Position numbers and translations under genes: made by a program
Notes under the pieces: generated by a model
The model's database searches: none
What the model was told of the DNA's origin: nothing
Seen by the model: the letters and a program-made list of their open reading frames with translations, nothing else
Assembly: GCF_029266855.1 (NCBI RefSeq)
Contig: NZ_JAQSWB010000002.1
Coordinates: 124,001-188,000, forward strand
DNA length: 64,000 nucleotides
Source: Fluviicola sp.
GTDB taxonomy: Bacteria; Bacteroidota; Bacteroidia; Flavobacteriales_D; Crocinitomicaceae
Direction: 5' to 3'
Shown: in pieces, positions 6,637 to 25,800 of the stretch
Position numbering within the stretch: position 1 is the first letter of the stretch
Layout of the letters: every line of letters begins with the position of its first letter

Positions 6637-8361
6637 CTAAAAGGCCTCCCGTTCCAACCACTCCAATCCATTTGGTAAATCTAAAGAGCTAAACTCTAAA
6701 TGAATCACTCTTCTTCGTTTTTGATTCTGTGTTTTAGAGGATGAGTGTAAGAGAAGTGGTTTCATTAATTGAACACCTCCTTCTTTCACTTCCATTAGTG
6801 CCGGATGAGCGCCTGCTGTAATAGTTTTGATTTCATCATCAGTAAATCTTTTGGTGTGTGAGCCCGGAATTACTTTCAACGCTCCGTTTTGTTCAAGAGT
6901 AGTGTCTAAATGAATTCGAATCGTAAAGATGTTGTGGAGAAATTCTTCTGGTGGACAAACTGAATTGATCTCTTTCTTTTTGGTCCAGGATGTAAATCCA
7001 ACGGTCTCAATTTTCTTCTGAATATTAATTGGAATATCCTGATGCCAACTGACGAACCAATTAGAATCATCCGGCTTATCAAAATAAATCGACTTCACAA
7101 GAAAAGCATTCGGATCTATTGATTTTACTAAACGCTTTAAGTTTTCGTTAAAAATGAATTCTTTTAATGAAGGAATACCTTTGATTAAAGTTCTTTTCCC
7201 GAAAGTTGGTTCATCATTGTCAGTGAAATAATCATGGAGTTCTTTGCCTATTCTTCGAATTTCTTTCCTTGTATAAAGATCATTGAGAATTGAATAACCG
7301 TTTTTCACCAACTTCTTACTCGCAGTTAGGGCATCAGAAGCTGATAATTGTGAATTATACATATCCAACCCATTCTGAAACTTCTCTTGAATTCTGCGTT
7401 TCAATGAAATAGGCTTCAACACTTGCATAGCTTCTCCAAAACCAAGGATCAATCGTTCCAACTCAAAATTCTGATGAACTGAAAGTTCTATGATTACTGC
7501 TCCATTGTTGAAGGTCTCTCTTACCTTTTGCGTATGATGTAAAGGTTTTGTCAGAACATACGGAGCATTTTTCTCATCTACTTTTAAGACAATTCGATCC
7601 ACATGCTTCTCGTCTAAGACCGTTACACCAATCGTGTTCTTATAAAAGGTGTCGCCATCAAAATTTTCGTTGATATGATCAAGTTTCGTGTCGTAGTCAA
7701 TACTAATAATCCGGTCTAAAGCAAAAGTCAGTACATTACCCTTTTTGTTTTTTTTACCTACCAAAAACCATCTGTTGTTGAATTCTTTCAAAATAAAAGG
7801 GTGAATAGTAATCACTGAACTTTCATTGGCTTTAAATGACTGATAGCGAAGTTTTAGAACCATCTTTTTTAGAATCGCCTGATACAAGACATCCAAGTGT
7901 TCCAGCCCCTTCAATTGATCATTCTTATCCAAATGAATAATTGCCGGTCGATGTGTTTTTTCTGTATAAATCTTATCCTCCAACCGTTGAATGATTCCTC
8001 CTAACTCTGAGAATAATGAAAAATCTTTGAATTGCTTCAACATCTCCACAGTCTCTGAAAGTACATGCATGTCATTTTCGTTCAATGGAATATCTGTGAT
8101 TGTAAAATCCGGATCTTCGTAACGATAGAATTTCTTATCATATACTTCAATTGGAGCATTGTAGCCCAATTTATCACTTCGCATTAATTGAATATCGAGT
8201 TGAATGGTGCGTTTGCTAACGTTTGCATCTTTTCCTTCGTATTCATATAATGCGTCTGAACACGCTTCAATCAAATCTTCCAATGTCCAATTTCGATAAC
8301 TGTTTTGTAAACATTTATCAATTGTTCTATAACGAATTAGTGCATTTTTGTTTTGTGCCAT
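6637..8361 (-). CDS. WYL-domain transcription regulator fused to a PhyH-type Fe(II)/2OG dioxygenase
   Basis: 574 aa. Residues 10-65 form a winged HTH (YRTIDKCLQN...VSKRTIQLDIQLM); about 150-330 match a WYL sensor domain with its C-terminal extension (LRYQS, PFILKEFNNRWFLVG, FALDRI, RRIQEKFQNGL). From about 345 the protein continues as a phytanoyl-CoA-dioxygenase-like domain: SWHQDIP gives H440-x-D442, then GALKVIPGSH (493-502), then LLLHSS with H539 and Arg 549-551, i.e. a complete metal triad and a 2-oxoglutarate Arg. The gene is divergent from rtcB and its start lies 27 bp from the palindrome at 8389-8407. Regulator and enzyme in one chain is unusual. I infer that it controls the three operator sites of the island; what the oxygenase part acts on is unknown. 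Confidence 0.85.
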   Translation of the reverse strand: MAQNKNALIRYRTIDKCLQNSYRNWTLEDLIEACSDALYEYEGKDANVSKRTIQLDIQLMRSDKLGYNAPIEVYDKKFYRYEDPDFTITDIPLNENDMHVLSETVEMLKQFKDFSLFSELGGIIQRLEDKIYTEKTHRPAIIHLDKNDQLKGLEHLDVLYQAILKKMVLKLRYQSFKANESSVITIHPFILKEFNNRWFLVGKKNKKGNVLTFALDRIISIDYDTKLDHINENFDGDTFYKNTIGVTVLDEKHVDRIVLKVDEKNAPYVLTKPLHHTQKVRETFNNGAVIIELSVHQNFELERLILGFGEAMQVLKPISLKRRIQEKFQNGLDMYNSQLSASDALTASKKLVKNGYSILNDLYTRKEIRRIGKELHDYFTDNDEPTFGKRTLIKGIPSLKEFIFNENLKRLVKSIDPNAFLVKSIYFDKPDDSNWFVSWHQDIPINIQKKIETVGFTSWTKKKEINSVCPPEEFLHNIFTIRIHLDTTLEQNGALKVIPGSHTKRFTDDEIKTITAGAHPALMEVKEGGVQLMKPLLLHSSSKTQNQKRRRVIHLEFSSLDLPNGLEWLEREAF

Positions 8362-8388: not shown

Positions 8389-8424
8389 TGCGCAGAATAA
8401 TTGCGCAGTTGAGTTAAATCTTTG
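8389..8424 (+). promoter_or_regulatory. Operator/promoter 1: TGCGCA-N7-TGCGCA upstream of rtcB
   Basis: The palindrome TGCGCAGAATAATTGCGCA (8389-8407) is followed after exactly 13 nt by TTTG (8421-8424), giving a Bacteroidota-like -7 element AATCTTTG. Two more copies with the same spacing stand at 10511 and 13991. It lies between the divergent WYL-PhyH gene and rtcB, the classic place for an autoregulated operator. Confidence 0.75.
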
Positions 8425-8483: not shown

Positions 8484-9878
<1,395 letters not shown>

Positions 9879-9917: not shown

Positions 9918-10499
9918 ATGGAAACACTAAAGAAAATGTTATTTAAGTTAATGTCTCAAACTCTTTCAACGAAAGAGTTTGAGACTTGGCTTTATACTGA
10001 TGATTATATTAAAAGTCAATTATTGGAAAACGAAATGATATTTGAATTAGTGAGCATTAATCTAAGATCCAAGCATGCCTTTAAGGAATTAGAAAAGTTT
10101 TGCTTCAATCATTTTGATCAAGAAGAATGTTTAGTCCAAATCGTAAAATACAATTGTGAAGTGTATTTGGATACTAAAACGGATGAGGCAACTGAAAATT
10201 TCATTCGAAACATTTGTTGTTTCCACGATTGGAACAATGATTATTCACTGATTTCACAAATTTATTATTTGGCTGATGACTGGGACCTGGTACTTGATGG
10301 TTATACCGACAAACAACAGGTGAAAAACGAGCTTTACAGCTATGCAGAAATTTTCTTAGAGAGATTGCAAAAATTGGATGCAGAAGAATCAATTCAATTG
10401 CTCCGAAATGGAATAGAATTTAAGAAAGTAATTCCAGAACCACCAAAAACTGATGTGATTGAGACTAAAAGTAAAGGATGGTTTCAGTTTTGGAAATAA
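9918..10499 (+). CDS. Hypothetical protein co-transcribed with rtcB
   Basis: 193 aa, acidic and alpha-helical, no signal or membrane segment. Repeating helical pairs (KEFETWLYTDDYIKSQL, HAFKELEKFCFNHFD, SYAEIFLERLQKL) suggest a small helical-repeat scaffold. The C-terminus ends in KGWFQFWK, an aromatic tail like those that act as docking peptides. It starts 39 bp after rtcB and is the last gene before operator 2. I recognise no family; by position it may be a ligase accessory protein, in the place where archease or a kinase stands in other systems. Confidence 0.6.
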   Translation: METLKKMLFKLMSQTLSTKEFETWLYTDDYIKSQLLENEMIFELVSINLRSKHAFKELEKFCFNHFDQEECLVQIVKYNCEVYLDTKTDEATENFIRNICCFHDWNNDYSLISQIYYLADDWDLVLDGYTDKQQVKNELYSYAEIFLERLQKLDAEESIQLLRNGIEFKKVIPEPPKTDVIETKSKGWFQFWK

Positions 10500-10510
10500 A
10501 ACTTTTAACC

Positions 10511-10546
10511 TGCGCAAAATAACTGCGCAGGTTTGGTCTTCCTTTG
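10511..10546 (+). promoter_or_regulatory. Operator/promoter 2: TGCGCA-N7-TGCGCA upstream of the nucleotidyltransferase pair
   Basis: TGCGCAAAATAACTGCGCA (10511-10529) followed by 13 nt and TTTG (10543-10546). The half-sites and the distance to the TTTG box equal those of operator 1, while the bases between differ. It begins 12 bp after the 193-aa gene and drives the gene pair at 10614-12430. Confidence 0.75.
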
Positions 10547-10613: not shown

Positions 10614-11360
10614 ATGAAAGATCAAATACTTAAGAAATTGCAAGAAGTTGAGCTTAACCATAGCATTGAAATTCTTTTTGCCGTGGAATCTGGAAGCAGA
10701 GCTTGGGGATTTGCTTCACCTGATTCAGATTATGATATTCGTTTTGTTTATAAGCGAAAAATGGAAAGTTATCTCAGTTTGTGGGATTCAAAAGATAGCA
10801 TCGAGTTCATGACGGAAGATGATTTAGATGGCTCAGGCTGGGATTTGAAAAAAGCAACTTTACTATTGGCAAAATCGAATGCTTCATTTTTGGGATGGTT
10901 GTTTTCACCAATTGTCTACATAGATCGTGGTGGAACACTGGATGCGATGAAACAGTTGGCAATCGAAAATTTCAATCCGATTGCAGGATTTTACCATTAT
11001 CATAGCATGAACAAAGGTTTCTATGAACAATTGGAATCAAAAGAACTCAAACTCAAAGCTTTTTTCTATGCAACTAGAACCGCTTTTTGTGCGAATTGGA
11101 TCTTAAAGAATGAAAAAATACCACCAGTTTTATTTCAGGATTTGTATTCTCTCATTGATGAAGAAAATGCCCAATCTTTAGATAAGCTTATCGCACGAAA
11201 AGCACAAACGAATGAATCCGGATTCTCTGCTATTGACGACAAATTAATCGCTTTAGTAAAAGAGATTGTTCTGGAAAATAATAACTTGAAAGACTCGATC
11301 AAGGCTAAAAAAGCAAATGTTGCTGATTTTGATCGGTTTTTCATCAATCAATTATCATGA
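10614..11360 (+). CDS. RlaP/YcgL-type nucleotidyltransferase, paralogue 1
   Basis: 248 aa. The polymerase-beta-like nucleotidyltransferase core is plain: FAVESGSRAWGFASPDSDYD followed by IRFVY, i.e. the GSRA/GF loop and the Asp pair D39/D41 type motif. The family (predicted nucleotidyltransferase YcgL, RlaP) is repeatedly found beside RNA ligases in RNA-repair loci and is thought to add or restore nucleotides at broken RNA ends. The stop overlaps the next start (ATGA), so the two paralogues are translationally coupled. This copy is shorter than its partner. Confidence 0.85.
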   Translation: MKDQILKKLQEVELNHSIEILFAVESGSRAWGFASPDSDYDIRFVYKRKMESYLSLWDSKDSIEFMTEDDLDGSGWDLKKATLLLAKSNASFLGWLFSPIVYIDRGGTLDAMKQLAIENFNPIAGFYHYHSMNKGFYEQLESKELKLKAFFYATRTAFCANWILKNEKIPPVLFQDLYSLIDEENAQSLDKLIARKAQTNESGFSAIDDKLIALVKEIVLENNNLKDSIKAKKANVADFDRFFINQLS

Positions 11361-12430
11361 CTATTGACGAGCTGAAAAAATCTGGATACATCATTTTTGA
11401 ATGTATCAGTGGTAGTAGAGCTTATGGATTAGATACGCCAAACTCTGATACAGATATTCGTGGTGTTTTTATCTTACCAGTAGATGATTTCTTTTCCTTG
11501 GAATACATTGGGCAAGTAAATAATGAATCCAATGATATTGTTTACTATGAATTGAGAAAGTTCATTGATTTGTGTGCGAACAACAATCCCAATATTTTGG
11601 AGATGTTAAATGTTCCGGAACGATGTGTTTTGTATGAACATCCACTTTTCAAAACAATCTCAATGAACATTTTTCTAAGTAAGCAATGTGAGTTATCATT
11701 TGCTAACTACGCTTATTCACAAATAAAAAAGGCACGTGGTTTAGAAAAGAAGATTGTGAATCCAATGGAAAAGGAACGGAAATCGATACTGGATTTTTGT
11801 TTTATACTCGATGATGGAAAGTCTGTGGAACTTAAAAAGTTTCTTGCAACTCAGAAATTAGATCAAACTAATTGTGGACTCAGCCGAATTCCGCACATGA
11901 GAGACTGTTACAACTTGTATGTTTCAAATGAATGGAGTTTTTCAGGAATTGCCAGGAATGAATTATCCAATGATGTTAACCTGAGTAACATTCCAAAAGG
12001 AGAAACCCCTATTGCAATGCTGTTTTTCAATAAAGATGGTTATTCTTCCTATTGCAGGAAGTACCGGGAATATTGGGATTGGGTAGAAAAACGAAATGAT
12101 GTACGTTATTCCAATACAATCGTCCATGGGAAAAATTATGATTCAAAAAATATGATGCACACCTTTCGCTTGTTGCACATGGCTAAGGAAATAGCGGTTG
12201 AAGGTAGGATCATTGTAGAACGTTCGGATCGTGAATACTTGCTTGAGATAAAAGATGGAAAGTATGGATATGAAGAATTGGTTGAAAAAGCTGAATTATT
12301 GAAAGCAGAACTTGTAGAGCTATATCGCCATTCATCGCTTCCAGATTTTCCGGATACCGATTTAATTAATATGCTTTTAATCCAAATTAGAAAAGAATTC
12401 TATTTGGAAGTAGAGCAACTATCAACTTGA
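11357..12430 (+). CDS. RlaP/YcgL-type nucleotidyltransferase, paralogue 2
   Basis: 357 aa. The N-terminal core FECISGSRAYGLDTPNSDTD followed by IRGVF has the same loop and Asp residues as the upstream gene, but the rest is longer, with a helical C-terminal half (residues 130-357) including KNMMHTFRLLHMAKEI, a conserved-looking His/Arg helix, and IRKEFYLEVEQL. Two divergent copies in one operon suggest different substrates or a heterodimer. A strong terminator follows at 12608. Confidence 0.85.
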   Translation: MTIDELKKSGYIIFECISGSRAYGLDTPNSDTDIRGVFILPVDDFFSLEYIGQVNNESNDIVYYELRKFIDLCANNNPNILEMLNVPERCVLYEHPLFKTISMNIFLSKQCELSFANYAYSQIKKARGLEKKIVNPMEKERKSILDFCFILDDGKSVELKKFLATQKLDQTNCGLSRIPHMRDCYNLYVSNEWSFSGIARNELSNDVNLSNIPKGETPIAMLFFNKDGYSSYCRKYREYWDWVEKRNDVRYSNTIVHGKNYDSKNMMHTFRLLHMAKEIAVEGRIIVERSDREYLLEIKDGKYGYEELVEKAELLKAELVELYRHSSLPDFPDTDLINMLLIQIRKEFYLEVEQLST

Positions 12431-13082: not shown

Positions 13083-13169
13083 GGAGAATAGGTAAATATT
13101 GGTTTGTTACGCTCACCTGCTAAGTGAGTTCACGGCAACGTGATGAAGGTTCAATTCCTTTGTTCTCCG
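13083..13169 (+). tRNA. tRNA-Ser(GCT)
   Basis: Acceptor GGAGAAT/GTTCTCC; D stem GTA/TAC; anticodon stem CTCAC/GTGAG with loop CTGCTAA (anticodon GCT); long variable arm CACG-GCAA-CGTG as expected for Ser; T stem GAAGG/CCTTT. CCA is not encoded. The D arm departs from the usual sequence. Confidence 0.75.
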
Positions 13170-13174
13170 CAAAA

Positions 13175-13248
13175 GACAAGATGGCCGAATGGTTAAGGCA
13201 ACGGATTGCAAACCCGTTTTTTTATGAGTTCGAATCTCATTCTTGTCT
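13175..13248 (+). tRNA. tRNA-Cys(GCA), slightly degenerate
   Basis: Acceptor GACAAGA/TCTTGTC, D arm TGGCCGAATGGTTAAGGCA, loop TTGCAAA (anticodon GCA), T stem ATGAG/CTCAT. The anticodon stem ACGGA/CCCGT has an A-C mismatch next to the loop, and the variable loop is six T. Confidence 0.65.
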
Positions 13249-13255
13249 CTTTACT

Positions 13256-13331
13256 CGGGTAGTAGAGGAGTTAGGTTTATCTCGCCTCATTTGGGATGAG
13301 GAGCACGTAGGTTCGATTCCTACCTATCCGA
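13256..13331 (+). tRNA. tRNA-Pro(TGG)
   Basis: Acceptor CGGGTAG/CTATCCG, D stem GAG/CTC, anticodon stem CCTCA/TGAGG with the Pro-type loop TTTGGGA, T arm GTAGG-TTCGATT-CCTAC, discriminator A. No encoded CCA. Confidence 0.8.
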
Positions 13332-13337
13332 CTTAAT

Positions 13338-13428
13338 GGAAGTGTTGAGTCAGCCGCGGCTGAGTTGGCTCACCAGACTGTAAATCTGGTCTCTTAGGAG
13401 CGTGTAGGTTCGAATCCTGCCACTTCCA
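13338..13428 (+). tRNA. tRNA-Tyr(GTA) with enlarged D arm
   Basis: Acceptor GGAAGTG/CACTTCC, anticodon stem CCAGA/TCTGG with loop CTGTAAA (anticodon GTA), long variable arm, T arm GTAGG-TTCGAAT-CCTGC. The D region is 26 nt (13347-13372) and contains an extra self-complementary CAGCC-GC-GGCTG inside the GAG/CTC stem, which ordinary tRNA-Tyr does not have. Confidence 0.65.
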
Positions 13429-13431
13429 CAA

Positions 13432-13506
13432 TGGCACTGTGGCTTTAGCCAGAGCACTCGACTGTCTCTTGAGTTGTTCGTTTCGAATTCTCGGAATCAG
13501 TGCCAT
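13432..13506 (+). tRNA. tRNA-Asp(GTC)-like, degenerate
   Basis: Acceptor TGGCACT/AGTGCCA is perfect and the anticodon arm CTCGA-CTGTCTC-TTGAG carries GTC in an Asp-like loop, but no good T stem can be drawn around TTCGAAT. Probably a tRNA-like or decayed copy. Confidence 0.45.
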
Positions 13507-13510
13507 GAAA

Positions 13511-13582
13511 CTGGGAAGATAACGATGGTTGTTTACCCGCCTTGGACGCGGGAGGTTGCAGGTTCGAATCCTGCTTCTCAGA
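13511..13582 (+). tRNA. tRNA-Pro(TGG)-like
   Basis: Acceptor CTGGGAA/TTCTCAG, weak D stem TAA/TTA, anticodon arm CCCGC-CTTGGAC-GCGGG (positions 34-36 TGG; the loop otherwise resembles tRNA-Gln), T arm GCAGG-TTCGAAT-CCTGC, discriminator A. A second, different TGG tRNA in the same array. Confidence 0.6.
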
Positions 13583-13664
13583 CGAAGTAACCAAATCAAG
13601 TTTATTTGAGTTTGGTTCAAGCTGAGACACGCAGGAAAGACAAAGTCAATCCTGCTTCTCAGAC
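13583..13664 (+). ncRNA. Two-hairpin tRNA-like segment with repeated 3' end
   Basis: First hairpin AACCAAA-TCAA / TTGA-TTTGGTT (13589-13617), second hairpin CTGAG...GCAGGA / TCCTGC...CTCAG (13622-13662). Its last 17 nt (13648-13664) repeat 13567-13583, the T-stem/acceptor end of the preceding tRNA. It has no D or anticodon arm, so it is a reduced tRNA-like RNA or a rearranged copy. Confidence 0.45.
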
Positions 13665-13668
13665 AAAA

Positions 13669-13739
13669 TGCCCTGTAGTGTAAAGGCAACACACAAGAAT
13701 TTGATTCTTGGACTATAGGTTCGACTCTTGTCAGGGCAA
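13669..13739 (+). tRNA. tRNA-Gln(TTG)
   Basis: Acceptor TGCCCTG/CAGGGCA, D stem GTG/CAC, anticodon arm CAAGA-ATTTGAT-TCTTG (anticodon TTG), T arm ATAGG-TTCGACT-CTTGT with two wobble pairs, discriminator A. Confidence 0.7.
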
Positions 13740-13747
13740 CAATAAAT

Positions 13748-13820
13748 GCGGAGATGGCGGAATGGTATACGCGTCTGTTTTAGGAACAGAATTTTGAGAG
13801 TTCGAGTCTCTCTCTCCGTA
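13748..13820 (+). tRNA. tRNA-Leu(TAG)-like with short variable loop
   Basis: Acceptor GCGGAGA/TCTCCGT, D arm typical of Leu, anticodon arm TCTGT-TTTAGGA-ACAGA (anticodon TAG), T arm GAGAG-TTCGAGT-CTCTC. The variable loop is only about 7 nt (ATTTTGA); true tRNA-Leu needs a long variable arm, so this copy is suspect as a translation tRNA. Confidence 0.6.
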
Positions 13821-13825
13821 CAATT

Positions 13826-13898
13826 GGAACAGTAGCAAAGTTGGTCAATGCGCCGGATTGAAGATCCGAAGATACAGGTTCGAATCCTGTCTGTTCCA
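13826..13898 (+). tRNA. tRNA-Phe(GAA)
   Basis: Acceptor GGAACAG/CTGTTCC, D stem GCA/TGC, anticodon arm CCGGA-TTGAAGA-TCCGA (anticodon GAA, one C-A mismatch at the stem base), T arm ACAGG-TTCGAAT-CCTGT, discriminator A, no CCA. Confidence 0.7.
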
Positions 13899-13902
13899 CA
13901 AT

Positions 13903-13990: not shown

Positions 13991-14026
13991 TACGCAGAAT
14001 AATTGCGCAGCAGGTATTAATCTTTG
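13991..14026 (+). promoter_or_regulatory. Operator/promoter 3: TACGCA-N7-TGCGCA upstream of the second RNA array
   Basis: TACGCAGAATAATTGCGCA (13991-14009), 13 nt, then TTTG (14023-14026), the same plan as at 8389 and 10511 with one changed base in the left half-site. It would drive the modules at 14064-14502 together with the 747-aa gene at 14532. Confidence 0.75.
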
Positions 14027-14063
14027 TTGTGTCGAAAGACAAAACGTTCATTTAAATATTGCA

Positions 14064-14122
14064 GGTCAAGAATAAGTTACTTCAAAAACTACCCGTCACG
14101 TAAACTAACTTATTCAATTACC
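14064..14122 (+). ncRNA. Structured RNA module a (GGTCAA-N7-TTACTTC / N7'-AATTACC)
   Basis: GGTCAA 14064-14069, N7 GAATAAG 14070-14076, TTACTTC 14077-14083; the partner CTTATTC 14109-14115 is the perfect complement of N7 and is followed by AATTACC 14116-14122. GGT pairs with ACC and TTACTT with AACTAA apart from one mismatch, so the whole forms one hairpin of about 17 bp. No T arm inside. Confidence 0.65.
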
Positions 14123-14131
14123 TACTTAATT

Positions 14132-14245
14132 GAGGCAGTAGCTCAGTTGGTAGAGCAGGTTAGCTTTTAAATTACCCATGGTCAATAAAAGCTTACTTCA
14201 GCACTCCTAATGCCCAGGTCGTGGGTTCGAATCCCACCTGTCTCA
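14132..14245 (+). ncRNA. tRNA-Lys-like RNA with hairpin insert in the anticodon region (module b)
   Basis: Acceptor GAGGCAG/CTGTCTC, a normal D arm GCTC-AGTTGGTA-GAGC and a perfect T arm GTGGG-TTCGAAT-CCCAC. Where the anticodon arm should be, GCTTTTA (14163-14169) is followed by AATTACC, CAT, GGTCAA and its complement TAAAAGC (14186-14192), then TTACTTC. GCTTTTA looks like a Lys anticodon loop (TTT). Either an intron-like insert that could be cut and re-ligated, or an extended anticodon arm. 114 nt instead of about 76. Confidence 0.6.
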
Positions 14246-14252
14246 CTATTAA

Positions 14253-14320
14253 GGTCAAAACCAACTTACTACAGATTGGTCTTACGGTTCGAATCCGTCT
14301 TTGAGAGTTAGTTAATTACC
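14253..14320 (+). ncRNA. Structured RNA module c with T arm
   Basis: GGTCAA 14253-14258, N7 AACCAAC, TTACTAC 14266-14272; partner GTTAGTT 14307-14313 (six of seven pairs) and AATTACC 14314-14320. Inside is a tRNA-type T arm (ACGG-TTCGAAT-CCGT) and a tiny TCT-TTG-AGA hairpin in place of an acceptor stem. No D arm. Confidence 0.55.
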
Positions 14321-14333
14321 TTATAAAACAATG

Positions 14334-14419
14334 GGTCAACATGATCTTACTTCCATGTCCAGGTTCGAATCCTGGTCTCCGCAAGGAGGGCGACTGGTTG
14401 AATTAGATCATGAATTACC
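14334..14419 (+). ncRNA. Circularly permuted tRNA-like module d
   Basis: GGTCAA 14334-14339, N7 CATGATC, TTACTTC 14347-14353; partner GATCATG 14406-14412 (perfect) and AATTACC 14413-14419. Inside, in order: T arm CCAGG-TTCGAAT-CCTGG, then TCTCC-GCAA-GGAGG, i.e. a 3' acceptor strand joined to a 5' acceptor strand through a GCAA tetraloop, then a D-loop-like ACTGGTTGAA. This is the part order of a tRNA opened in the anticodon and closed at the acceptor end. Confidence 0.55.
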
Positions 14420-14433
14420 CCTAAAAATAATAT

Positions 14434-14502
14434 GGTCAATTGTTTCTTACTTCTTGGGTATAACCCATCACTTATAGGAAATGACAGAGAAACAAAATTA
14501 CC
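14434..14502 (+). ncRNA. Structured RNA module e, just before the 747-aa gene
   Basis: GGTCAA 14434-14439, N7 TTGTTTC, TTACTTC 14447-14453; partner GAAACAA 14489-14495 (perfect) and AATTACC 14496-14502. The interior holds a TGGGT-ATA-ACCCA hairpin and no T arm. It ends 29 bp before the start codon at 14532, so it is also in the 5' leader of that gene and could affect its expression. Confidence 0.6.
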
Positions 14503-14531: not shown

Positions 14532-16775
14532 ATGAAAACAGAATTATTAAAAGTATCAATCAGAAAAAATGCCATTGTGATTCCACAAGAGTGGATTGTA
14601 AGTGATGGCGCTAAACATATTAACGAGACAACAAGTGTACTTTTAGCGAATTGTTCTAAGTTGGGATATACTTTTTCTGAAGATTTACTAAACAAAGTGA
14701 ATAGAATTTCTCCAAAGACACAATTGGAGTTGTTTGAATTATTGAAAGGCGTCACAGGTGTGAACAAGAACTGGACACCTTTAGTAAAGCAATGGAATGT
14801 ACCAACCGGAGAATCTGTTATTGATCATATTATTACTTGGTTTGCCAATGTTTTTCAAACCAACAAAGGAACCAAACTCCCTTGTGGACACTTAATTCCG
14901 AATAATACGTTTCCAATTGAACGATACAATGGGTGTCCATTCTGTGGAACTCCATTTGAATTTGATAAGTTGGATTATGTTTCTGGAGCGAACAAATTGA
15001 AAACATTGGAGTTATGGACAGAAGATGATTTGAAAAAATACTTTATGAGTCTTTTGGAATCACCTGTTGCTTTAGATGCTACCCAAGTCGACGACCTTAA
15101 AGTCCTAGTGACTCATTTCGACATACCATCAGGTGTTGAAGTTAAGATAAAGGAAACGTTGATGGTTGTCATTGACGTTCTCGTTGAACAAGATCATTCA
15201 GAATTGGCAGGTCAGTTTTTCAAAACACCTAATGATGTATTGAGGTACTTATGGTATAATCATACTGGGTTTTTACAAATTATCGAACCAAAAACAATCG
15301 TGAACCGATTGGAGAAAAATGCAAAAAACTTGCACCCACAGCTTGACAAGAGTATGGAGACAAAGATTAAGTCATTGGCTGATTTGAAGTTAAAGTATAC
15401 TAGAAGTGAATGTCAACGATATGCGACGTGGTTAAACAATTTAACCTTAGACATTGTTGACCAATGTGAAATGATGCACCCGAAAAGAAGTATGTGGGTT
15501 CGAGTAATCAGAGCATTGAGATTAGCGGAATACAGTAAACGAAAAGGATTTGAAAACTTAGCTGAATTATTGGATACGTTCTACAACGAAAAATACGAGG
15601 TATGGCAAGGTAAAGTAAATGAGAACAAATTGAAATCAGATACTGAAGGTACTTTTGCTTTATTAAAGCAGAGACCAGGATTATTTACCAGATCATTGTT
15701 TTCTTCCATGTTATGGTTCGGGCCAGATGTGTCGATTAAACACTTCAAAGAAGTAATGGATAAAGTTCCATCAAGATTGATTTTTACATTGAATATGTAT
15801 GCTGAAATATATTTCGATAAAAGTTCATCTAGAACTGTAAAACCTTTGGGAGGAGTGAGTAAGAATATTCCTTCGAATAAATTACTTCAATTGTATACTG
15901 ATCAGGAATTGAAAAGAATGCAGTCATTAGTTCAGTCCTTGAGTTTAGAAGTCATCAAAAGTAACTTCAGTAAAGTGGGGAATACGAATAGCACGATCTA
16001 CATTGACAAAGGGTTATTTAATATTCCAATAGCTATTGGAGATAGAAGTGAACATCTTCAAGACTTACCAGGTGCTTTAATGGGAACCAAATTCAAGGTT
16101 GAAGGAGATACTGTTCGATTATTTTTACAATGGGGAGAGGGGCTTCCTGCTCAGCATCTTGATATGGATTTGAGTTGTAGAGTAGTCTATGAGAAAAAGA
16201 ATGAATTTTGCTCCTATTCACAACTTGTGATACCAGGTTGTAAGCATAGCGGAGATATTCAAAGTATTCCTGATAAAACAGGGACTGCTGAATACATTGA
16301 TGTTGATTTGAATGAATTAACTCGATCAGGAGCAAAGTATGTGAGTTTCGCTTGTAATGCTTATACGAATGGCAGCTTGGCACCAAACGTAGTAGTTGGT
16401 TGGATGAATAGTAACTCTCCAATGAAGATTTCTTCAAGTGGTGTAGCTTATGACCCTACAGCTGTTCAACACCAAGTAAGAATTAAACAAAGCCTTACAA
16501 AGGGTATGGTGTTTGGGGTTCTTGATGTAGAGAATAGAGAGATCGTTTGGTTAGAAATGAGCTTTGGAGGACAAGTAATTCAAGATTTCAATCTTTTGAC
16601 TTTAGAAGCATTATTGAACAAATTGGATGCTAAGTTAAAGATTGGAGATTTATTGAACATGAAAGCAGATGTACAAGGTTTAGCTATCATCGAAGATGCT
16701 GAAAAAGCAGATGAAGTGTATGACATGAATTGGGCTTTAAATACAGCTGAAGTTAGTAGGTTGTTCTTGGAATGA
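14532..16775 (+). CDS. Zinc-ribbon protein with C-terminal TerD-like domain, RNA-repair island
   Basis: 747 aa, no signal or membrane segment. Residues about 105-140 hold a zinc ribbon (LPCGHL then GCPFCGTPF). Residues 150-480 are alpha-helical. From about 500 the sequence follows the TerD beta-sandwich pattern: VRLFLQWGEGLPAQHLDMDL, then a HSGDI segment and EYIDVDLNEL, a region that in TerD binds calcium. It is the only protein gene of the third transcription unit, directly behind the RNA modules, as Ro60/TROVE proteins stand next to their Y RNAs; I infer an RNA-binding scaffold. It is not a TROVE protein by sequence. Zinc ribbon is clear, TerD assignment moderate, role inferred. Confidence 0.7.
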   Translation: MKTELLKVSIRKNAIVIPQEWIVSDGAKHINETTSVLLANCSKLGYTFSEDLLNKVNRISPKTQLELFELLKGVTGVNKNWTPLVKQWNVPTGESVIDHIITWFANVFQTNKGTKLPCGHLIPNNTFPIERYNGCPFCGTPFEFDKLDYVSGANKLKTLELWTEDDLKKYFMSLLESPVALDATQVDDLKVLVTHFDIPSGVEVKIKETLMVVIDVLVEQDHSELAGQFFKTPNDVLRYLWYNHTGFLQIIEPKTIVNRLEKNAKNLHPQLDKSMETKIKSLADLKLKYTRSECQRYATWLNNLTLDIVDQCEMMHPKRSMWVRVIRALRLAEYSKRKGFENLAELLDTFYNEKYEVWQGKVNENKLKSDTEGTFALLKQRPGLFTRSLFSSMLWFGPDVSIKHFKEVMDKVPSRLIFTLNMYAEIYFDKSSSRTVKPLGGVSKNIPSNKLLQLYTDQELKRMQSLVQSLSLEVIKSNFSKVGNTNSTIYIDKGLFNIPIAIGDRSEHLQDLPGALMGTKFKVEGDTVRLFLQWGEGLPAQHLDMDLSCRVVYEKKNEFCSYSQLVIPGCKHSGDIQSIPDKTGTAEYIDVDLNELTRSGAKYVSFACNAYTNGSLAPNVVVGWMNSNSPMKISSSGVAYDPTAVQHQVRIKQSLTKGMVFGVLDVENREIVWLEMSFGGQVIQDFNLLTLEALLNKLDAKLKIGDLLNMKADVQGLAIIEDAEKADEVYDMNWALNTAEVSRLFLE

Positions 16776-19837: not shown

Positions 19838-22800
19838 TTAGCGAAATCCTAATGATTTAATCACTTCATTCATTCCATGAAGTTCCAATCTCCAATCAAA
19901 AAACTTTTTACTGGCAGACATTGTATTCAAATCTTCTCCTTTTTCAAAGGGTAACGGAAGCTTAGGAGCTAATGTATGTATTTTACCGTTAGCCCCGAGG
20001 TCTAGTGGTCCTAAAAGATAATTGAGAACTTCATATTCGATCACATAAGCTCTAATCGTGGATTGAGATTTACCTTCAACCCCATACCTTTTCATTGTCC
20101 TTGTTGATAGACCCGCAGCATTAAAAGTATAGGCCGTTTTACCAGAAACAAGGGATGCAAGGCTTGCTAGTCCACCTCCAAGTGAGTGGCCTACAAAAAT
20201 TGTGTTTTTCGTATCCTTATAAATGTTTCCAATTCGCGCCGCCATCTCATACTGCTCTTCTGATCCACCACCTCCTTGCTTCACGTTTGTCAACCAGTCT
20301 TTTCCCTGATTAGTTCCAGCAAAAACGACTCCATAAAAATCGATATCATCAATAGTTCGTTTGTAAATCCCAACTCTTAATCCACTTTTACCTGCGATAA
20401 TCTTCTGCAAATGATAACCACCAACAGTATTATTATCTTCTTCGCTTTCTTTTTGACTTAGTAGGGTTTCAACACCTTCAGTATAGTTGTTTTGAAGATA
20501 TATATTTTCCTCTAACATTGCCGATTCTCGGAGAGTTGGTCCAACATATTCATCGCCTTGATCCCAGTAGATGCCAGACTTATCATTGTTTTGTAGCAGT
20601 TTATAATAAAAAACTTGATCTTCTAGCCCGCTTGCTTGAGAACGTGATAAAAATGTTTTTCCAACATTTTCAGGTATCATTAAACCATTTTCAGGTTCAA
20701 GCCCTTCTAATTCAACCGTATGAATTACTTGATTTCCAGAAAAAGCATATGGAGTCCAATATGGGTATTTACCTGCCAACGGATCAATCGCAAAGAAACG
20801 ACCGATTCTCGGATCATGCATACGATACTCATAGTTCAATGAATTCCCCGCCCCTTTGATCTCATCATCTCGCTCTTGCCCCTGAAACCCATAGCGGTAG
20901 GTGTTGTCATTTCCATGTCTGCCGGCCAGTAATGTTCCGTATGGGCTGTAATCTGAGTAGGAAACAATATCTGCCGCATAGCGGGGAGAGGACTGGATCT
21001 TCAAACCATAGATGCTGCGGTTTACCTCGTAAAAGGCAAAGTCTATCAGCATCGGAACCGTCGGGTTCTGATCGGCACTGGTATGTTTCAGTACTCCGTT
21101 GTAATAATACTGGATGCTGTTATTGGACCGCGAGATCTTCAATACTCCGCCCGGGGCATAGGCACCGTGTGTTCCGTATGTTTGCCCGGAGACAAGCACC
21201 CCGTTTTCCAGTACGGTTAAACCGCTTGCGTGAGTATACCAGCCGTAATTGATGGTCGACGCCCCACTGCTTGCATTTATGTAGGACAAGCCAACATCAA
21301 TGTATTGATTCGCAGCTGCATTTGCGCCACCCAAAGTCCATTCGAAAGAATCTCCCTGTGACAGGGTTTCAACGGAAGCTCCGCCGCTTGGTCCCCAGCC
21401 GGTGCCTGCGGTTGTTCGGGTAATTATTCCTGAACTCACCGTAACACCTGCCATGTCCTTATATAGAGGCTGAAGCTGGGAGTTTGTTTCGGAAGGGGGG
21501 GCTTTTACTTTCCGGTCGCTGATCACTTCCAATACGTTTCCAAGGTGGTTGGAAAGTTCATAACGCTTATCTCCAACAATTCGTCTAGTGTAATCCGGGG
21601 AAGAAACTCCTCTTGGCGGAGTCACCATATTCCATCCACGAGCAATTTCCACGTCGGTAGATTCTGATGTTGACTGAGTGTATTTCTCATCAAATAAGAT
21701 CACATTTTCCAGTTCCGTTCCCAGCCTTTCAGCTCCATGGATGAAGTGGTCATTGATTTTATAATTGTCGGTATAATTGTTCACCGATCCGGAAGTATTT
21801 ACATAGGTGCGTGTACGCCCGTAAGTCGCCATGACATTCCCACCTGCATCGTAACTGTAATAAGTCCACTTAATGATCGTATGCAGGGCGTTCATGTACT
21901 CCATTTTGGCAATTCTGCGGTCCATCGGATCGTAGATGTATTTCAGGTCATGTGAGCCGTCAGATAAAAAATCAATCTTTTTGACTTTCCCGGTCACCGT
22001 CCACTCAATCTTTCCTATTCCTTCCTGGGCATCTGAAATGAGCTGCCCGTTGATATTGTACTTATAGTTTACGTTAGTTTGACCATTTTCAATATCCTCC
22101 GAATGAGGGTCGCCTGTTACTGCATCCAAGACCCCTCCGAGACGGTTTCCATTAGTCGGATTCAGAACTGAACTTCCGGACTGTGTATAATACATGTATG
22201 TGAAATCGTCCATTGGAAGACTTGCGGCGCCTCCTAATCCTTCACCGTTGCGCTTGAGAGAGGAAAGGTTTCCATTCTTGTCAAAAGTGTAACTTTCCTG
22301 AAAAGCACTTGAAGAACCTCCTCCGGAACGGTACAAAGCAGCCCCAGTGAAATCATTGTTCGTCTGAAGGTTTGTGGCATGATATACCTTCATTTCACGG
22401 ATGCGCTGCAACTGATCGTATTGATAATTGTTTGCCAGGATGTCGATCTTTGCCTCATTCAGATCCCGCAAGGCAGTCACCATGTGCGTAATATTTCCAT
22501 TGTACAGGCTGGCCATTGACAAGCCGAAAGCATGGGAGTCCGTGTTCAGGTTTTGATCTGTAACGGCACTTGTTCCTGCAAAGTAATCGTTGGTATAGAC
22601 CTGTGTACTTTCTGCAGCGTCTTTAATTGCCTGGTAATCCTTGTCAAAGTAACCCAAGGAGAAACCAACCGCATCTACTCCAAAGAATTGGTTATCCGCA
22701 TTGGAATTTCCGTCCTTTCCAATATCTCGTGTACGATCCAGGGTTGAGCTATTTGCTCCTTTCAGCCAGCCTTGCAGGTTGTAGGCGTAATCGGTACCCT

Positions 22801-25800
22801 GCACCTGGTCATGACCCAATTCCCTTCTTGCAAGCGAACCATGCAGGTAGTAGAAGTATTTCGCGTCCAGTTCCCAGAAATCACCGTTATGAGAAGTGTA
22901 GGACCTTACCAGTCGGTTATTTGCATCATAGTGGTACCGGTGGCGGTACTCATCGCTAGCTCCTTTTTGGTACTGCACTTCTTCCACATTTCCGGAAATC
23001 AGGTCGTAAATATAATTGGTGCGCTTGTGTTGCATACCGATGGATGCCAGGTGATTATTGGTAGCAATCATGGTTTTCACATTTTTGTGCACATCATAGC
23101 TATATGATAGGACCGAGATCACCTCCGTTCCTGTGGATACTGTCACATTTCCATTTCCGTCGAGCACATTGATCCCGTTTGCGTCTACAATATAATCTGC
23201 TTGCCGGTGCATAACAGCTCCAATGGTATTTCGCAGGTTCTCCTGTCCGTCGGTGCCGAAGGCCGAAGCCAATGTAACGTCAGGGGATGCATTAGAAGGA
23301 TAGAAGGCTGTTCCCGAAGGTGGATTATAACCAGTTTCGTAAAATGTATGCGTAAAATCCAGGATACGGGTTGTCGGGAAGTTCTGATTGGTTTCATCTG
23401 CCGCAATTGTCGCCAGGTTTTCGTTTGTCAACTTAACAAACTCACCTGCGTCGGTCACGCGTCCCAACTCATCGTATTTATTGAAGGTGGCCCGTCTTTT
23501 TGCCGATTGTTCGGCATTTTGTGAAAAGCGCACACGGTACAATTTATCCAGGAACAGATCAGATCTACCACCATCAGGAGTGTAACTACTTACTAGCGCA
23601 TTGAGTCCATTGTACACATACCGGGTTTCCATGTCGTGGGCCGGGAAGGAAGGGGTATTACTTGGCAGTAAACAGTTATCGATCTGAGTCTGGTTGAAGG
23701 GGTGAACTCCCTGCGGAGGAACCGTTTGGGTTAAATTACCAGCCAGGTCATAATAATAGAGTGTATACTGATATTCCATCAGTTTATAAGTCATTCTGAA
23801 ATCTTCGCGTGCATTCAGGCAGGATTTCATTTGTTCGTAGAACTGGCTCCACAAGTTTTCTATTACCTGGTTGTAGAGCACCTGTGCATCGGCAGTTGCC
23901 TGCTGGATTTGGGATTGGATACAATCCGTTTCCAATTGAGAAGCCATATCCGGGATCAGGTCATTGATTGTTTCAAAGGAACTTCCAAGGTCACCGGAAG
24001 GATCTCCGGCGCCGGCGCCGCATTTATAGTCAATAGGTTGTGAACATCCATACCCAGGAGCGTTATACATACAACGGGTATAGAGCGCGGAAATTACTCC
24101 ATTCGGACTTGGATCAAGCGGTGCTGTTCCCGGAATAAGAGATACAGTCAGGTTCAGGCTGGAATTACTATTGCCGTAAAAAGGCGTCTCATTGTAATTT
24201 GAAACGTTGTGAGTATATGTGAAGGGATCTAGTTCCAATGCTCCGTCGATGTAATTCTCGCAGAAGTAAACTCCATTCGTGGGGTCTTTCAAAGGAATAT
24301 CAAAATCTTTTGAAGAGTAGGTACAACTCCCATCTGTGATCTCAAATTGAAGGTAATGTTTCCTATATGGTCCATGCTGGTATGTGGGTGTACATTGAAA
24401 TGCAAGCATTGAGTTATTGGAAATAACCACATTCGTATTCGGATAAATATATCTGACAGAACCGATCGTTCCGTTAGGCAAGGTAACATTTGTCAATGTT
24501 TTGACATACCACATCGGGATATTTTGTACAGGTACGTTCTGAACTCCGACAGTGGGACAGGTGGTACAGGTAATAACCGATTGAATCAGGGTGTTCAGAT
24601 CCTGGTTCATTGCAGTGAAGTTTGTTGTTCCAGCGTTTCCGCCACCTGTGCCTGAAGAGGTAGGAGGATCAACTTCGAAAGGTAAATTCGAAGTTGTACT
24701 GTAACTGCATCCGGTCGTTGTCAATAAACTTTTAATCGCATCGTATTGAACTTCTCCTGGCGCATTCGTAATGGTGTTTGCCGGATCCGGATCATAGAAC
24801 AGACCCAGGACATTCTCATTTACAGGACTTGGTGCTGTTGTAGCTTCACAAACCGATCGTGAATAATTGTAGAATAACTGGACCAGTCCGCCACTTGTTG
24901 AAGAGGAGGAATAAGCAGACTGCAAAGCAAGGGCAGCAGTCGAATTGTAAGGAGTGATTGTCGTAAAGCTGCTGATGCCAATTGCCGATAAACATGTTGG
25001 AGATAAAGAAGTCATCCAGATATTGACGTTGTCGATCGCTTTTTCGTGGCAGGTTTTTGTATTCAGTGTTCCATTGATAGCAGCATCTGCAATTGCATCT
25101 ATTGACGCATAAGTCATTGGCGGGATCATGAAAATGGCATTCTGATCATCGTAGAACGTACAGCCAGCCAATTGTTTCACCAACTGCCATTTCACCTTTA
25201 AATACAAGCCTAAAAACAGCTGTTTCTTTAAATCGGTAATTTCATCCGTTGTCATCGGATCCCCTTCACACGCTGATAGAGATGCAATACGCGCTGCCAT
25301 TGCAGTAACCACTGCGTAAAGATTCCCGCTGTTTACCAGGGGCCAATTGGTCGAACAATCGCTATATGCCGGCAGGTTATTCGCCGCACCAAAATTATTG
25401 ATCTGGGAAGTCAGTGAAGCCAGCATTCCAAATGTATTGTTTGCGTGGTCATAAGCTGCATCATATGGCTGGTAAAATACACCGCTGGTAGGGGTCGTTG
25501 CCGGCCAGGGAGTACTCATAATAATTGCCGTAATATCCAGGCTGGCATTCTGAACATCGATCCATTTCTCACATCTGCCGTTCAAAAGCATACAATATTC
25601 TCTGTGTACCGGTAAGAGTGCTGTTGCCATTGCAGAAGTATAGATCAATGGATCTTGAAGTTGAGCAATGGTATAAGAAGTTCCATTGATGGTCACAGGA
25701 CCAGCTCCTAAAGATGTCCAGAAAGAACTGGAATGATTTTCATACAGTACCCCACCGACTGAGATCTGGTGAATGAGCCTTTGGCGCTGTGCTTCGCAAC

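Follow-up and report, generated by a model that had tools for sequence, protein, structure and literature searches.

Y RNAs of RNA-repair operons are described as having ends that pair into a Ro60-binding stem and as carrying a tRNA-like domain (PMC8394870; PMC7790460), which has been suggested to be a competitive nuclease inhibitor (PMC7790460). Here we analyse a 64,000-nucleotide (nt) stretch of Fluviicola sp. (contig NZ_JAQSWB010000002.1, positions 124,001 to 188,000; hereafter the window), in which an array of five RNA modules, a to e, precedes the gene of a 747-residue protein that we call Y. Coordinates are those of the window, on the plus strand unless stated otherwise. The locus also holds a WYL-PhyH regulator, RtcB, two RlaP nucleotidyltransferases and a tRNA array and is, by its gene content, an RNA-repair cluster. 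We put at roughly 60% the probability that the RNAs of the module array are Y-RNA-like scaffolds serving protein Y. With small RNAs that share a handle, lying 5' of a possibly Ro60-like protein and next to RNA-repair genes, the system looks like a counterpart of Ro60/Y-RNA, one that would work alike rather than a demonstrated member of the known family.

The likeness to YrlA and Rsr/Ro60 of rtc operons lies in a stem that the RNA ends would form, in T-arm or acceptor cargo and in the RNA-repair setting (PMC8394870; PMC7790460). The permuted modules appear to follow the plan of a Y RNA beside an RNA-repair locus and Y: the two ends of each pair with one another, and 56 of the 264 permuted modules shorter than 110 nt carry a T-arm. 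However, the stem sequence differs from that of YrlA (15.9 bits with the RF02553 model, against a cut-off of 69), the modules come in arrays of up to seven, and the stem is also found inserted into a tRNA. Unlike Ro60, Y contains a RING-like part and a TerD part, and it is without a TROVE sequence signal. The modules form an RNA family with covariation support which, as the original prediction had supposed, is matched by no Rfam family other than tRNA in the window and seven related loci, tRNA alone reaching its cut-off there; in the open-licence literature, judged by title or start of abstract, no publication describing these RNAs was found. Their occurrence suggests that the origin or divergence of Ro60/Y-RNA-like scaffolds in RNA repair was not a single event.

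The handle and its occurrence ahead of Y

The box pattern GGTCAA-N7-TTACT(T/A)C occurs at 14064, 14180, 14253, 14334 and 14434, with no other copy on either strand of the window, and partner boxes N7'-AATTACC start at 14109, 14163, 14307, 14406 and 14489. N7 pairs with the N7' of its own module at 7/7 positions in a, b, d and e and at 6/7 in c, as compared with just 1–5 of 7 for the N7' of other modules. AATTACC by itself is frequent (25 in the window), so the signal lies in the pairing and the box order. This order is swapped in module b, which amounts to a circular permutation. On the box positions, the pairing and the swapped order the original prediction proved accurate.

Relatives bore out its claim that an RNA structure is conserved through compensatory changes, in 283 box pairs and in an alignment of 40 deliberately diverse rows, both chosen without any pairing rule. 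Pairing at no fewer than six of seven positions was found in 266 of the 283 and not in the other 17, whereas with shuffled partners 46 reached this level on average and 63 at most. In the 40 rows, 82% of cells were paired versus 60.5% after shuffling, two-sided changes numbered 149 versus 59.6, and the covariation score was 0.552 versus 0.180 after shuffling and at most 0.183 after sliding; one of the five covariation measures, pairs with any two-sided change, showed no difference (12 versus 11.2 shuffled). These results, together with the concentration of modules in the DNA upstream of Y as against controls (see below), led us to reject a chance repeat.

Each module carries the same two-junction stem, which we call the handle. 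Its core consists of GGU, C opposite U, A-U, A opposite A, a free base, a helix of 8 base pairs (bp) and UACUUC, as seen in the 283 pairs and in 334 modules (the 341 described below less seven over-long ones). The proposed N7/N7' pairing stands, but the helix is 8 bp long rather than seven, a conserved U-A pair closing N7; this pair is replaced by A-U in five of the 283 box pairs, and the UACUUC that follows is nearly invariant. The helix continues beyond GGU/AYC, with paired fractions of 0.89, 0.51, 0.86 and 0.75 at steps 1 to 4 against expected values of 0.51, 0.39, 0.44 and 0.43, and falls to near background past the fourth step. This outer helix covaries too, and in one relative (G289) GCC/GGC can be read from the sequence in place of ACC/GGU. 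Folding of single modules reproduced the helix, in c partly, and all but c folded better than shuffled sequences (z −2.4 to −2.9 in these four, 0.0 in c).

An alternative is a self-cleaving ribozyme that would cut the array into fragments ending in a 2',3'-cyclic phosphate and a 5'-OH, for RtcB to circularise or repair. It would suit the roughly 20 conserved bases of the two junctions, the constant helix length, the circular permutations and the nearby RtcB. We give this explanation scarcely any credence, because a cut within the element would break the tRNA of module b to no evident use, the tie to protein Y would be superfluous, and no Rfam model of the known self-cleaving ribozyme classes reached its cut-off in the window or the seven related loci.

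A genome scan yielded 388 stretches encoding relatives of Y, and locus counts refer to the best 80 of these 388, all from Bacteroidota by title except one metagenome-assembled genome titled Chlorobi. A finder that requires N7/N7' pairing, and thus selects for it in its sets of 341 and 334 modules, detected 341 modules (271 permuted and 70 of insert type) within 1500 nt 5' of the Y gene in 79 of the 80 loci, the 80th (L102) starting within Y at a contig edge. It returned one module downstream of Y, none within Y and none in shuffled upstream DNA. Homologous arrays are thus present elsewhere, and the RNA family is likely widespread in Bacteroidota. Among 240 genomes of the bacterial family, clustered boxes were found in seven (G000, G040, G041, G053, G058, G060 and G112), all of which encode Y; G004 encodes Y as well and has a single box just 5' of it, and the remaining 49 box hits come near the 41 of a reversed-pattern control (hand count). 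Among 395 genomes drawn across Bacteroidota, 11 had Y, and each of these also had the strict pattern, which was present in 13 genomes altogether; the other two showed single hits, and the reversed-pattern control likewise hit two. Ten of the 11 Y-bearing genomes belong to one genus, so this phylum-wide sample is not a broad one, and the tie of modules to Y that it reveals is a genetic association. Modules were seen with Y of Bacteroidota and of the Chlorobi-titled genome, and by eye in Hymenobacter, Segatella and Prevotella; of the distant Y relatives, two leaders were inspected, from Deinococcus and Variovorax, and no modules were seen there by eye. A phage origin was rejected: of 19 viral-contig loci with the exact pattern, just three gave a weak pair with the finder, and the best candidate (L223) lies in DNA that looks coding by eye and in which no tRNA was detected.

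In the same 79 of 80 loci the modules lie in the leader of Y, where the last one is nearly fixed in its N7 (often GTGTTTC, TTGTTTC or GTGCTTC) and stops 23 nt (median; range 17–196) short of the Y start codon. Such an arrangement would be consistent with a purely cis-acting leader, serving autoregulation of the Y mRNA or damage-sensing attenuation and having no function in trans. This seems to us very improbable, since many diverse and nested modules exceed a leader's needs, and since the tRNA of module b, with its normal acceptor and T-arms, should be cut out by RNases P and Z. If the modules are scaffolds for Y, module e may in addition give Y control over its own mRNA.

Interrupted tRNAs and the cargo of the handle

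Module b (14132–14246) is an interrupted tRNA. The tRNA model RF00005 recognises its acceptor, D- and T-arms (49.2 bits over 14132–14245, cut-off 29); ARAGORN did not report it as a tRNA. Boxes and sequence place a 41-nt insert (14160–14200) in the 5' strand of the anticodon arm, between positions 28 and 29, and this insert holds the element, namely N7' (14163–14169), AATTACC (14170–14176), GGTCAA (14180–14185), N7 (14186–14192) and TTACTTC (14193–14199). In the predicted fold, the AGGU that precedes the insert is paired with ACUU from the TTACTTC box, competing with the anticodon stem. Joining the parts gives a tRNA of 74 nt with the arm GGGCA-CTCCTAA-TGCCC. Its anticodon is CCT, that of Arg, which does not support the earlier assignment to tRNA-Lys by anticodon. 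The suggestion that N7' parts are anticodon loops had to be rejected, because it suits neither module a nor module e and because in b the anticodon loop is located 3' of the insert. The joined body is closest to native tRNA-Lys and tRNA-Gly (56 matches each, the native tRNAs being read from 30 of 40 matches plus the window), and its D-loop is one base short of that in native Arg(TCT) tRNA, the missing base being an Arg identity element in E. coli. Judged from sequence, this combination of a Lys/Gly-like body, an Arg anticodon and such a D-loop speaks against an ordinary decoding role of module b.

Interrupted tRNAs recur in the relatives. From 82 candidates, five were dropped (four in which the T-arm belonged to a nested module and one spurious), leaving 77. 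With the insert removed, and with split point and V-loop length picked to favour rebuilt stems and no shuffle control, the anticodon stem was fully paired in 70, U33 was present in 72 and purine 37 in 75, and all three features in 66, among which 15 different anticodon stems occur. The junction follows position 28 in 59 of the 70 with a fully paired stem. Anticodons were TTT (35), TCT (17), TCC (4), GTT (3) and 13 other kinds in the remaining 18. Some pairs of bodies identical over 55 positions carried different anticodons (for example TCT in L125 and TTT in L112; TAT in L122 and TTT in L106), and body likeness was 0.77 between TTT and TCT as against 0.78 and 0.80 within each. A constant body with a changing anticodon could reveal the toxins that these systems face. 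By eye, most loops with junction 28/29 (L055–L134) read YUNNUAA, positions 34–35 varying and U36-A37-A38 being constant, as in tRNAs for ANN codons.

These interrupted tRNAs raise the possibility that the element is a small tRNA intron, which a nuclease would cut at both ends, RtcB joining b and the permuted modules giving circular RNAs. RtcB joins the ends needed for tRNA splicing, and its gene is in the locus; for 66 of the 77, removal of the insert restores a tRNA whose 5-bp anticodon stem is paired and which has U33 and a purine at 37, subject to the favourable choice of split noted above; and one of 37 Y proteins matches a tRNA intron endonuclease domain, though not significantly (E=0.18). 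The permutation of the modules is that of permuted tRNA genes, so that they would have a natural permuted intron-exon layout, and the locus resembles archaeal and algal tRNA genes that are circularly permuted or hold introns in showing both circular permutations of one paired anticodon-arm motif together with an RtcB-type ligase. However, known intron-holding tRNA genes have their junction at 37/38, whereas here it shifts between 28/29 and 31/32, and the acceptor loop is closed in module d. The archaeal bulge-helix-bulge, with two 3-nt bulges round a 4-bp helix and fixed cut sites, was not found either, the element having an 8-bp helix, a CAA/NAUU junction on the side opposite UACUUC and variable spacing. 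The distance from element to exon end varies (about 2–7 nt 5' and 0–3 nt 3', in a dozen cases measured by hand), and therefore fixed cuts would not yield canonical tRNAs. Different anticodons on identical bodies, the absence of an exon of evident use in a and e, and the lack of a splicing nuclease among eight window proteins scanned also tell against splicing. The anticodon-stem pairs can form with or without splicing and so do not decide between scaffold and intron. Taken together, we hold the intron to be unlikely.

The handle holds cargo, which is a whole tRNA body in b and tRNA-like in some other modules. The permuted modules shorter than 110 nt hold 14–58 nt inside. In the window, module a (14064–14122; boxes, sequence and fold) surrounds a 25-nt loop with no evident tRNA parts, module c (14253–14320; boxes and sequence) a T-arm, TACGGTTCGAATCCGT, and module d (14334–14419; sequence and fold) a V-loop, a T-arm, an acceptor hairpin with a short closing loop (GCAA in the window) and a short D-like part. 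Module e (14434–14502; boxes and fold) is the last permuted element, 29 nt 5' of the Y start codon. The description of all five as tRNA-like is thus supported for b, c and d, but not for a and e, where no tRNA part is apparent by eye. In five loci (L066, L068, L069, L129 and L132) a permuted module is nested in the outer loop of an interrupted tRNA, as read from sequence in four and from box order in L069.

Protein Y and the proposed particle

Protein Y (14532–16775) was characterised with NF041916, Prok-RING_4 and predicted folds. It comprises a RING-like zinc part, a helical domain (about residues 154–484) and a C-terminal domain that has the TerD fold in the predicted structure. A weak Prok-RING_4 match is present in 37/37 Y proteins. 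Y resembles the MXAN_6230/SCO0854 RING family, although its NF041916 match (residues 11–683, E=1.3e-41, 142.7 bits) is below the family cut-off of 600. In the predicted model the helical domain possibly resembles Ro60, in which respect Y may be like an Rsr/Ro60 partner. Fold searches with whole Y gave TerD alone clearly, with no Ro60 among the matches listed. A sequence link to TROVE was rejected: the 20 families listed for the 37 Y proteins include no match to the TROVE profile (PF05731) at E<=1, and hhalign of Y against nine Bacteroidota TROVE proteins gave a probability of 0.1. The PDB holds no sequence relative of Y. Residues 253–368 show weak NFACT_N similarity in 10 of the 37 Y proteins (best E 0.00097, under the Pfam cut-off).

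Building on the observed handle structure, its association with Y, the locus, the interrupted tRNA and the fold resemblance (the last in a predicted model), we propose the following model. Y would bind the handle as Ro60 binds the Y RNA stem, and RNases P and Z would process the RNA. The tRNA-like cargo would dock tRNA-handling enzymes or tRNA-cutting toxins, module b might display its anticodon loop as bait or sensor, and the Y-module complex would steer damaged tRNA to repair by RtcB and RlaP. A more far-reaching version, in which this is a second particle of Ro60/Y-RNA type with its stem grafted into a real tRNA, an exchangeable anticodon serving as bait or sensor for toxins and damage being passed on to RtcB, is tentative and somewhat doubtful in our view. 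The interrupted tRNA makes the roles of RtcB and of an anticodon bait testable in culturable Flavobacterium.

The surrounding locus

As the original prediction had noted, rtcB is close to the array. It encodes a divergent RtcB-type RNA ligase (8499–9878; Pfam RtcB, E=1.9e-34, under the NCBIfam cut-offs) and is followed by genes for an RlaP nucleotidyltransferase of RNA repair (10614–11360; Pfam RlaP, E=8e-63) and a second RlaP-like nucleotidyltransferase (11357–12430; E=1.5e-25). Between rtcB and rlaP, a 193-residue open reading frame (ORF; 9918–10499) has no Pfam, NCBIfam or PADLOC match. On the minus strand lies the gene of a WYL-WCX protein fused to a PhyH domain (6637–8361; Pfam WYL, WCX and PhyH), which has relatives in 60 of the 80 Y loci by clustering and is likely the regulator of the locus. 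Burroughs and Aravind (2016) reportedly described RtcB RNA-repair operons with nucleotidyltransferases, non-coding RNAs and a novel tRNA-like RNA, the latter said to go with SPFH/Band-7 proteins; our locus is similar in uniting RtcB, nucleotidyltransferases and non-coding RNAs, and that tRNA-like RNA may overlap with the RNAs of the present array.

An operator-like palindrome, TGCGCA-N7-TGCGCA, lies 5' of rtcB (8389–8407), with a second copy 5' of rlaP (10511–10529) and a third 5' of the module array (13991–14009), none assigned to a strand; the pattern common to the three fronts is TRCGCA-N7-TGCGCA. In the relatives, 65 of 79 loci have such a motif no more than 700 nt 5' of their first module, against a background count of 30/79 in the region 3' of Y, which is not a clean control because rtcB begins there in many Flavobacterium loci. 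With a palindrome at its front, the module array is probably transcribed from a regulated promoter of its own and would form the leader of Y. A leader hairpin, TGTC-GAAA-GACA, can be read from the sequence at 14030–14041, and similar stretches were seen by eye in several relatives.

An array of uninterrupted tRNA genes occupies 13083–13899, where ARAGORN reports six and Rfam seven. Between these genes, GAAGTAACC (13584–13592) is the complement of GGTTACTTC, and pairing of TTACTTC with GAAGTAACC is therefore possible.

Some further loci deserve mention. Rhodococcus phage Weasels2 (L176, 4197–6275) encodes a distant Y relative within a tRNA cluster, some 3 kilobases ahead of an annotated RtcB; in a Variovorax plasmid (L177, 1642–6848), another lies three small genes from the RNA-repair activator gene rtcR. 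On the reverse strand of L053 (G289), an RtcB-like ORF and then a release-factor-like ORF, with a GGQ motif and PrfH-like by eye, precede the modules and Y. In the window itself, the minus strand carries a very large ORF (19838–28111; 2757 residues) with RHS-like repeats by eye.
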